This document shows positions 43,477 to 54,271 of a stretch of DNA of 64,000 nt, in pieces. The notes beneath the pieces are model-generated. The model had not been told where the DNA came from and searched no databases. It saw nothing but the letters and a program-made list of their open reading frames with translations. The stretch is from Halomarina pelagica. GTDB taxonomy: Archaea > Halobacteriota > Halobacteria > Halobacteriales > Haloarculaceae. Numbering within the stretch: position 1 is the stretch's first letter; every line of letters starts with the position of its first letter. The stretch is from the NCBI RefSeq assembly GCF_024228315.1, contig NZ_CP100454.1, positions 2,232,001 to 2,296,000 on the forward strand. The letters run 5' to 3'. The position numbers and the translations under genes were made by a program.

Positions 43477-43565
43477 TACCTCGATTCACCGGGTCCGCGC
43501 GCTAAAGGCTATCGGGACTCGGGTCGGGGGTGGGTTTGGGGGGTCAGCGGTCTACGGTGGCGGTG

Positions 43566-43735
43566 CCTCGAACGTCTCGGATCTGAGTAGGGAGGGAGCG
43601 CCTCGAAAGCTCTCGCTCACGTAACGAACCGCAACGAGAACACCTCGAACGCCCTCGCATGGTCTGCCACATCGTATACCGTCTCGAAAGCCTCCGAATC
43701 GGATGCAGAGGACAGTACTACCTCGAAAGCCCTCG
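43566..43735 (+). repeat. left array of five spaced motifs
   Basis: CCTCGAACGTCTCG (43566), CCTCGAAAGCTCTCG (43601), CCTCGAACGCCCTCG (43643), TCTCGAAAGCCTCCG (43682) and CCTCGAAAGCCCTCG (43721). Start-to-start spacing is 35, 42, 39 and 39 bp. The spacers do not resemble each other. Confidence 0.7.
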
Positions 43736-43909
43736 CGCTGTGGACTCCCGGAAGACGGTCCTGCTCGCCTCGCGGTGCTCGGCTGCGCGGGCTGCGACTT
43801 CCGACGTCACGCTCGCCTTGCTCGCGTGACTCGCGCGCCTCGCTGCGCGCTTCGCTCGCTCGCTCCGCTCTCTCGCTCCAGTGCTTGTGTCGGCGTGCTT
43901 CGTCTACAG

Positions 43910-44140
43910 CGCTCGCCCTTTCAGTCCACCAGGAGACGCGCAGTGCGTGTCTCCTGCGCCTCCGTTCGCTCGCCTGACGGCTCGCTCACGGAGACGCCAG
44001 GGGACCGAACCGCACCGTCCCGCACGCCTGCCCTCCCCCGAGTCGGGCGACGAGCCGCCCTCCCGGCCACGCGGCTGGGCGCGCTTCTATGCGCGCCCGG
44101 CGGAGTCGGGTAGGCAGCCTGGCGGACTGAAAGGGCGAGG
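43910..44140. ncRNA. candidate structured RNA domain closed by a long inverted repeat
   Basis: CTCGCCCTTTCAGTCC (43912-43927) pairs with GGACTGAAAGGGCGAG (44124-44139), and after one mismatch CCAGG pairs with CCTGG, giving 21 bp. Inside are GGAGACGCGC/GCGTGTCTCC (43932-43954, one G-U pair, loop AGT) and GGGCGCGC/GCGCGCCC (44077-44098, loop TTCTAT). Transcription is not shown. Confidence 0.45.
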
Positions 44141-44235
44141 GTCCTACGCGAACCCGGAGGCCGCAAGCACCGCAGGTGAGCGAGCGGAGCGAGCGAGCCG
44201 AGGAGCACAGCGTGTCTCCCGGGAGCGTAGGACCC
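44139..44235. repeat. long hairpin GGGTCCTACG / CGTAGGACCC
   Basis: Ten-base arms at 44139-44148 and 44226-44235 are exact reverse complements and enclose 77 bp rich in GAGCGAGCGGAGCGAGCGAG. It directly abuts the previous inverted repeat. Confidence 0.6.
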
Positions 44236-44324
44236 GAGGGCTTTCGAGACACTCTCCTTCGACTCTGATCCGAGGGCGTTCGAGGTGGTAGAAGATCTCG
44301 CTGACCGTCCGAAAGCGTTCGAAG
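44235..44324 (-). repeat. right array of three inverted motifs
   Basis: CGAGGGCTTTCGAG (44235), CGAGGGCGTTCGAGG (44271) and CGAAAGCGTTCGAAG (44310) are the same motif as the left array on the other strand, at 36 and 39 bp spacing. Confidence 0.65.
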
Positions 44325-44345
44325 TGGCATCGACGGTATCCGCGT

Positions 44346-52803: not shown

Positions 52804-53274
52804 GTGACCGACGACAGCCCCGACGACCCCGGCCACGAGCGGTTCGTCCGCCGCACGCACGAACTCGCGCGCGAGGCGATCGAGAACGGCGACCGCCCGT
52901 TCGGAACGCTGCTCGAACGCGGCGGCGAGGTGCTCGCGGAGGACGTGAACACCGTCCTGACGGACGGGGACATCGCGGCCCACCCGGAGCTGAAGCTCGC
53001 GCGCTGGGCCGCCCGGGAACTCGACGCCGACGCGCTCGCGGAGACGACGATGTACACGAGCACCGAACCGTGCCCGATGTGTGCGACGGCGCTCTACAAC
53101 GCCGGCCTGCGGCGGGTCGTCTACAGCACCTCGGCCGCGGACCTCGCCGCGGTCGCGGATCCGGGACTCGTCCTCCCCGCGAGCGACGTGTTCGCCCGCG
53201 CGGACGACGAGGTGGCGGTGATCGGCCCGGTGCTCGCCGAGGAGGGGCGGACGATCCACGAGTCGTACTGGTGA
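52804..53274 (+). CDS. CMP/dCMP-type zinc deaminase family protein
   Basis: 156 residues from GTG 52804 (GTG 52783 is also in frame). HPE (the first zinc ligand and the proton shuttle) and EPCPMCATAL (two zinc cysteines) are the deaminase motifs. The protein resembles guanine deaminase and tRNA adenosine deaminase, and I cannot choose between them. It is a single gene. Confidence 0.8.
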   Translation: MTDDSPDDPGHERFVRRTHELAREAIENGDRPFGTLLERGGEVLAEDVNTVLTDGDIAAHPELKLARWAARELDADALAETTMYTSTEPCPMCATALYNAGLRRVVYSTSAADLAAVADPGLVLPASDVFARADDEVAVIGPVLAEEGRTIHESYW

Positions 53275-53371
53275 GGTCGGGACCGCCGCAGGATGCCGCG
53301 GGCCGTCGACCCTCGTCACCCCTCGTCGCCCCTCGCCAACCCTTATCCCGACGGGTCGAGTCGCCCGAACC

Positions 53372-54271
53372 ATGGAGACGCGCCGTACCCTGCTCGTGGA
53401 CGCCTTCACCGAGGAACCGCTGTCGGGCAACGCCGCCGGGGTCGTCCCCGACGCCGAGGGGCTGACCGCGGATCGGATGCGGGCGATCGCCCGCGAACTC
53501 CACGCGAGCGAGACGGCCTTCCTCACCGACAGCGAGGAGGCCGACCGCCGGATCCGCTACTTCACCCCCGAGACGGAGGTCGACCTCTGCGGGCACGCGA
53601 CGATCGCCAGCCACGCCCTCCTGCACGAGGAGGGCGTCGTCGACGCCGGCACGCACACGCTCGCGACGAACGTCGGCGTCCTCGAGATCGACGTCGAGGC
53701 GGACGGTACGGTGTGGATGACGCAGGCCCCGCCCGAACTCCACGCGGTCGACGCGGAGTACGGGGAGGTCGCGGACGCCCTCGGCGTCGAGGAGCGTGCG
53801 CTCACGACCGTCGCCGACGACCTCCCGCTCGCGTGGAGTTCGACCGGTCTCGCGTTCCTCGTCGTCCCCGTCGCGCGCCTCGACGACCTCGGGAACGCGA
53901 CGCCCGATGCGGCGGCCGTCGAGGCGCTCTGCGAGTCGGTCGACGCGACGGGCGTCTACGCGTTCACCTTCGAGACGCTCGACCCCGACGCCGCGCTCCA
54001 CGGGCGGATGTTCGCCCCGCTCGCGGGCGTCCCGGAGGACCCCGTGACGGGCACCGCGAGCGGGGCCGTCGGGGCGTACCTGCGGGAGTACGACGCCTTC
54101 GACGACCTGCCGGCGGAGATGGCGTTCGAGCAGGGTCACTTCGTGCAGCGCCCCGGCAGGGCGCTGGTGCGCGCCCGCGGCGAGATCCGCGTCGGCGGTC
54201 GCGCCGTGACCGCGCTCGACGGGACGCTCTCGATCCCCGACCCCGAGGAGGACGACGTGATCGAGGCCTGA
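53372..54271 (+). CDS. PhzF family isomerase
   Basis: 299 residues. FTEEPLSGNAAGVV at the start holds the conserved catalytic Glu region, FTPETEVDLCGHATIAS supplies the Asp and His, and the second half repeats the same fold, ending VQRPGRALVRARGEI. PhzF-like proteins isomerise or bind aromatic acids; the substrate here is unknown. Confidence 0.88.
   Translation: METRRTLLVDAFTEEPLSGNAAGVVPDAEGLTADRMRAIARELHASETAFLTDSEEADRRIRYFTPETEVDLCGHATIASHALLHEEGVVDAGTHTLATNVGVLEIDVEADGTVWMTQAPPELHAVDAEYGEVADALGVEERALTTVADDLPLAWSSTGLAFLVVPVARLDDLGNATPDAAAVEALCESVDATGVYAFTFETLDPDAALHGRMFAPLAGVPEDPVTGTASGAVGAYLREYDAFDDLPAEMAFEQGHFVQRPGRALVRARGEIRVGGRAVTALDGTLSIPDPEEDDVIEA

Follow-up and report, generated by a model that had tools for sequence, protein, structure and literature searches.

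A folded intergenic region of Halomarina pelagica combines two oppositely oriented copies of a repeat dispersed across haloarchaea

Between gatB and a hydrolase gene of Halomarina pelagica lies a strongly folded intergenic region, at positions 43560-44330 of a 64,000-nucleotide stretch of the genome (NCBI RefSeq assembly GCF_024228315.1, contig NZ_CP100454.1, positions 2,232,001 to 2,296,000; hereafter, the window). This region is a composite: a repeat, unit A, is present twice, in inverse orientation, around a spacer, module B, with short repeats on the flanks. Unit A is dispersed through haloarchaeal genomes, its paired bases covary, its wobble pairs are unequally shared between the strands, it turns over at syntenic sites and one of its subfamilies has inserted as the core of miniature inverted-repeat transposable elements (MITEs). 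Our preferred reading, to which we give a probability of about 0.6, is that unit A is a non-autonomous DNA repeat found throughout the haloarchaea, that one subfamily of it has been moved by IS6-family transposases and that its composites have been remodelled in place with pairing kept.

Architecture of the folded region

The outer stem of the region is formed by CTCGCCCTTTCAGTCCACCAGG (43912-43933) and CCTGGCGGACTGAAAGGGCGAG (44118-44139), two 22-nucleotide (nt) arms with 21 complementary positions and 184 nt between them. In 100 dinucleotide shuffles of 43560-44330, the longest arm with at most one mismatch had a mean length of 12.5 nt and a maximum of 15, none reaching 22, and no more than 20 nt was reached in any of 81 further pieces of the window of the same 771-nt length. 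The 21-bp long-range stem reported by the first-pass annotation, which had been made from the sequence alone, is therefore confirmed. When 43876-44175 was folded as DNA (z = -4.2), the enclosed part contained the two local hairpins that had also been described, at 43932-43954 and 43960-43993, and a third at 44077-44098. Both strands of the whole 771-nt region were folded as RNA, with z = -9.4 for the minus strand and -11.7 for the plus strand (20 shuffles each).

The same annotation had taken the region for one large element; we find instead two dispersed repeat units and a spacer. The left unit A copy (43719-43933, minus strand) supplies the left arm of the outer stem and is enlarged by a nested insert, because of which its match to our covariance model reaches only E = 3.4e-7. 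The right copy (44118-44250, plus strand; E = 6.7e-21) begins with the right arm and has its own stem, GGGTCCTACG/CGTAGGACCC, which is the second long hairpin that had been seen abutting the first. Each copy also folds alone; the 21-bp stem joins the two copies as their outer pairing. Module B (43934-44117, no strand assigned) comprises the three local hairpins and is present at other loci of the genome. The open reading frames (ORFs) of the region, of up to 142 amino acids (aa), sit in repeat DNA and none is gene-like by inspection, no family search having been run, which agrees with the earlier view that the region has no credible reading frame. A tRNA was rejected as an explanation, none having been found. 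A further long inverted repeat, with 20-nt arms at no more than one mismatch, the longest among the 81 other pieces, lies at 53200-53970 of the window.

A covarying fold carried on one strand

A search of the region against its own genome gave 110 matches and revealed the recurring unit A. Its layout is 5'-CCTGGCGGACTGAAAGGGCGAG, a variable stem, inner stems and CGAGGGCTTTCGAGG, with paired ends; uninterrupted copies are 118-134 nt long, about 122 nt (of the rows given by the pattern script that listed the copies, those at 851047 and 3178875 seem to be spurious or truncated). RNAalifold predicted 35 pairs from 19 own-genome copies, 22 of which were changed on both sides. These 19 copies were used to build the covariance model, with which other genomes were then searched. 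Among 93 copies, the bases pair in 95.3% of base-pair cells, as against 30-49% in slid controls, a value that 0 of 500 shuffles reached, and double-sided changes are present in 28 of the 35 pairs. Since the model served both to find the 93 copies and to align them, this alignment is biased toward structure; even so, the gap to the controls is so large that covariation by chance is implausible.

The mismatched loops are conserved and purine-rich (GGCGAG/CGAGGG and the GNAAGCAC / GCGCAGC region, in the 19 own-genome copies). Wobble pairs are unevenly distributed, with 130 G-T cells against 26 A-C cells, an excess which indicates that one strand, the G strand, is the structured one. With RNA parameters, the G strand has the lower folding energy in 84 of 93 copies, and 56 of 78 G-strand triloops are GNA. 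DNA mini-hairpins in which a GNA or GNNA loop is closed by two or more G-C pairs are described as extraordinarily stable (PMC4686876).

Distribution in the class Halobacteria

In its own genome, the covariance model matches 32 places at E<=0.01 and 27 at E<=1e-5. Matches to unit A are present in 123 of 145 genomes of the class Halobacteria, representing 51 of 59 genera. A sample of the phylum gave matches in 17 of 120 genomes, every one of them from Halobacteria; the genomes listed without a match included two from this class and all those listed from other classes. Unit counts per genome are lower bounds, with at most 24 candidates scored in the class survey and at most 29 in the phylum sample. 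Plasmids, too, carry related stretches, namely those of Halorhabdus, Halobaculum, Halorussus, Haloarcula and Haloterrigena.

Of 29 pairs of adjacent copies, 27 are inverted, a count that omits L178, L180, L228, L290 and L291 as duplicates and treats syntenic loci of sister species separately. The nearest neighbour of a unit lies within its own genome for 45 of 143 units, compared to 9.8 expected with shuffled labels, reflecting some recent amplification or homogenisation. At five loci of genome G009 (L237-L241), a unit-rich genome without a match to Y1 transposases, a larger repeated element of about 340 bp was seen, in which a conserved GGCTGGGGAGG(C/T)GTGAGGTGCGG segment precedes unit A; it runs from about 150 nt before the unit to 70 nt past it.

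A subfamily at the core of IS6-type MITEs

The 5' end TAGTGTTCAGATAAG (at most four mismatches) is present in 17 of 172 copies and the 3' end in 17, with 0 and 0 in control stretches. Six copies outside the window lie in MITEs of 216-228 bp with the ends GGCGGTGTTCAGATAAG / CTTATCTGAACACTACC, perfect 8-bp target duplications and 13-14 of 16 terminal bases matching. A seventh match, L234, is 285 bp long; its ends are unrelated, and chance may account for it, as 8 of 343 control placements passed the same loose threshold. When IMG/VR was scanned for the MITE end, 31 stretches were returned, and one of them, L331, carries a 697-bp element that shares these ends and has GGTTTGAC on both sides as its 8-bp duplication. 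Its 211-aa ORF encodes an IS6-family transposase (PF13610; NF033587 at 199 bits against a cut-off of 125). From these shared ends, the 8-bp duplications and the IS6-family element, one subfamily of unit A is recognizable by sequence as the core of IS6-type MITEs, which would have been moved in trans.

An alternative source of mobility would be the Y1 transposases of the IS200/IS605 or RAYT (repetitive extragenic palindromic [REP]-associated tyrosine transposase) type, acting on single-stranded DNA as in bacterial REP and REPIN systems. The strand-specific mismatched hairpins and the predominance of inverted pairs recall REP systems, and Y1 transposases were detected in 100 of the 145 genomes. 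However, seven genomes without a Y1 match (G006, G009, G011, G015, G026, G030 and G089) are rich in units, each having 19-24 unit matches among the at most 24 scored, so that Y1 transposases are not needed for abundance, and the sole terminal structure found is of the IS6 type. We regard movement by Y1 transposases as very unlikely.

Turnover at syntenic sites between Halomarina species

We compared the own genome (G000) with that of Halomarina halobia at syntenic loci; L211/L190 was set aside, as a match was seen for just one of its flanks. Three single units have 98% identity (those of L201/L185 and L212/L193 and one of the units of L205/L184). Where units are paired or form composites, the flanks are mostly 88-97% identical, but units on the same side are often just 56-84% identical (L210/L180, L203/L186, L204/L199, L216/L183, L202/L187 and one unit of L208/L181, the second unit of which is 94% alike). 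At L203/L186, the unit that matches at 93% is flipped. The window locus behaves similarly: the left unit reappears flipped on the right side in H. halobia PSR21, with 94% identity and the orientation of module B kept, next to a GatB that is 97% identical. Both arms of the outer stem are retained in H. halobia and, in altered form, in H. rubra, which has a related composite at the same intergenic spot; H. oriensis has a short spacer only. On the sequence side, this contradicts the refutation that the first-pass annotation had proposed, namely that no homologue keeps both arms.

Units or parts of them are also missing at some sites. In H. halobia, cores have been lost with the joining of CTCG repeats at L207/L295 and L204/L199. 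The loss at L200/L292 is internal, and L195/L298 shows a deletion. The A-B-A arrangement of L219/L189 is absent in G000, as are the units of L192 and L194 of H. halobia; for the MITE-like copy L192, G000 has a clean empty site. We considered whether unit A is a core that had inserted, with a 4-bp CTCG duplication, into the palindrome GAAAGGGCGAGGGCTTTC, and rejected this. The coreless palindrome (at most one mismatch) was found in only 12 of 145 genomes and at least two of its matches lie, by their coordinates, inside intact units (G000:C1:1657716 and G026:C1:1294636); as it is rare and partly within intact units, core loss is likelier than a common empty target.

Separately, the flanks of L205 and of L206, which are about 8 kb apart in the own genome, both match a single H. 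halobia locus, L184, which carries a unit at the junction of the two flanks. Judging from this arrangement, a rearrangement was probably made through the repeats.

Pairing might also be kept by mutation alone, if the two arms correct each other through template switching without any selection. The arms do vary between copies yet remain complementary, and the CTCG-to-CTCG core losses suggest that the hairpin forms during replication. Correction between arms should, however, erase conserved mismatched loops such as GGCGAG/CGAGGG, and a strand-symmetric process should not yield an excess of G-T over A-C; this explanation is highly improbable.

Siting and orientation: DNA element or RNA gene

The first-pass annotation had suggested a large structured RNA or a DNA structure bound by proteins. 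Conservation of structure is strongly borne out; for the RNA, the matter is different. Unit A could be a multicopy structured noncoding RNA family, either a trans-acting RNA or an element of 3' untranslated regions, in which the fold of G-strand RNA is selected. The very strong covariation, the wobble pairs favoured on one strand and the lower folding energy of G-strand RNA are all consistent with this proposal. Against it, no position exceeds 0.3 bits in the 40 nt upstream of the 93 copies, so that no built-in promoter is visible in those 40 nt. The orientation of neighbouring genes, surveyed with heuristic gene calls for up to 165 copies (of 172, after repeats of the same copy had been removed), shows little preference, with 64 upstream genes in the same and 58 in the opposite direction and 78 downstream genes in the same direction and 64 convergent. 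In addition, units are lost, swapped or flipped at syntenic sites, and Rfam 15 gave no match at gathering score over the window and none at E<=1 in four loci. The lack of upstream conservation, the slight orientation preference and the high turnover favour a DNA element over an RNA gene, and we consider the latter unlikely. A single riboswitch-like class was also rejected, as the same-strand genes 30-170 nt downstream are diverse by eye; they include putative genes for chorismate synthase, dihydroorotase, UvrB and gyrase.

Flanking repeats and other modules

Short repeats resembling CTCGAAAGCCCTCG flank the composite. The left set (43602-43735, plus strand) has members at 43602, 43644, 43683 and 43722 with 0-2 mismatches, the last of which is the edge of the left unit A copy. 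The right set (44235-44320, minus strand) is inverted, with members at 44235-44248, the edge of the right copy, and 44271-44284 and a weaker one, by eye, at about 44302-44318. The insert nested in the left copy is module C (43750-43802, minus strand), a GGAAG/CTTCC stem around TCGCAGCCCGCG...GCAGGACCGT.

With a variable outer stem, module C is a second small palindromic module that recurs within about 200 nt of tRNA genes, at L027, L111, L112, L113, L114, L115 and L116 (tRNA Leu, Asn, Arg, Gly, Gly, Gly and Pro; examples at G000:C1:526398, 671713, 960714, 1753543, 1759251 and 3363423). In several cases an inverted copy of the tRNA 3' end precedes it and a duplicated tRNA 3' end follows. Elsewhere in the own genome (G000:C1:2509950-2511180; L123/L216), two inverted units and halves of module B enclose a small gene, cupin-like by eye, as if it were cargo, an arrangement shared with H. 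halobia (L183).

Discussion

Our results suggest how a repeat of this kind may persist. Each copy of unit A folds, in a strand-specific way, into a long imperfect hairpin; its internal loops are conserved and purine-rich, and its triloop is often GNA. The MITE subfamily would be moved in trans by IS6-family transposases. Within the composites, recombination between hairpin arms, or replication slippage between them, may then flip, swap or delete units in place. Pairing may be kept since a single-stranded hairpin is needed for propagation or protein binding. A bolder version is considerably less probable. It holds that unit A is a class-wide system of single-stranded-DNA hairpins, in which stem sequences drift while selection on one strand keeps the pairing and the mismatched loops of a 122-nt fold, units spread by boarding IS6-type MITEs and are then swapped or flipped between resident copies, and a protein of the host or of the element would read the fold and not the sequence.

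Several observations weigh against the preferred reading. Both MITE ends are present in just 10 of 172 copies, and the window composite itself was found to have neither MITE ends nor a target duplication among the outer inverted pairs examined; the best of these are CTCGAAAGCCC repeats, with at most five of eight bases shared outside them in the five best rows. Mean identity is 0.724 within genomes and 0.714 between genera (163 units, after removal of identical ones and of loci without a genome label), and from this near equality recent movement would be a minority, with most copies old. The one-strand G-T excess is as compatible with RNA as with single-stranded DNA, and DNA parameters give a weaker strand signal, the G strand being lower in 64 of 93 copies with GNA triloops in 19 of 41. 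Finally, there is a hint of cis function: in 32 of 78 cases a co-directional start follows the 3' end at a distance of 80-110 nt, compared with 9 of 58 for the same spacing of 5' ends and divergent genes (p = 0.001, exploratory).

This last observation raises the question of whether unit A is a cis-acting element, such as an insulator, a terminator or an upstream regulator, that is retained close to promoters and to the ends of genes. Its intergenic siting, with an ORF call overlapping only 22 of 165 copies, would fit such a role. On the other hand, the downstream genes look diverse by eye, upstream genes have little preferred orientation and individual copies appear or vanish between sister species; the clustering can also reflect insertions that are tolerated outside promoters only. 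We attribute it mainly to the survival of such insertions, which explains the asymmetry only in part, and judge a cis-acting element decidedly unlikely.

A fold that covaries, occurs in the majority of haloarchaeal genomes and has no counterpart in Rfam would normally be taken for an RNA gene. As the evidence here points to DNA in spite of the covariation, caution is advisable before every covarying repeat is called RNA. For the preferred reading of a DNA repeat remodelled in place, these results also provide a lead on how transposase-free haloarchaeal repeats may spread, as cores of IS6-type MITEs followed by in-place switching, and the sister-species loci are sites where the switching of units can be measured.

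Unit A resembles the REP, bacterial interspersed mosaic element and REPIN systems in being an extragenic palindrome that is dispersed, mostly in inverted pairs, and assembled into mosaic composites. REPs are 20-40 bp long and most have GTAG or CGTC tags, according to PMC3733652, in which no haloarchaeal content was found; unit A is about 122 nt long. Whereas REPs go with Y1 transposases, unit A is abundant in at least seven genomes without a detected one. No description of unit A was found in the open-access literature, the part that our search covered (subscription journals lay outside it), and only a paper on Haloquadratum came close. The SMR-A repeats of Haloquadratum walsbyi are, according to that paper, about 110 bp long with prominent inverted ends and no transposase gene, are commonly more than 95% identical within a type, are described without target duplication and insert into palindromes close to the termini of IS605-type elements or of PATEs; their mobilisation was called enigmatic by Dyall-Smith et al. 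in 2011 (PMC3119063). Uninterrupted copies of unit A, with their paired ends, are of similar size and form. They differ in being mostly 71-72% alike and in that six of them lie in MITEs with 8-bp duplications, which belong to the MITE, most copies showing none; no targeting of IS605-type palindromes was seen, though IS605-type neighbours were not surveyed; the comparison with the Haloquadratum repeats HqIRS42, 43 and 55 was by description and not by sequence. With MITEs mobilised by IS6-family elements, six copies share terminal repeats and 8-bp duplications, and a matching IS6-family element exists; most copies, both window copies included, are without such ends, and the fold of unit A is conserved across the class independently of them. 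The closest described systems are the SMR-A and PATE repeats of Haloquadratum and MITEs; because its copies fall short of the identity of SMR-A and the window copy does not have the structure of a MITE, unit A is a member of neither.
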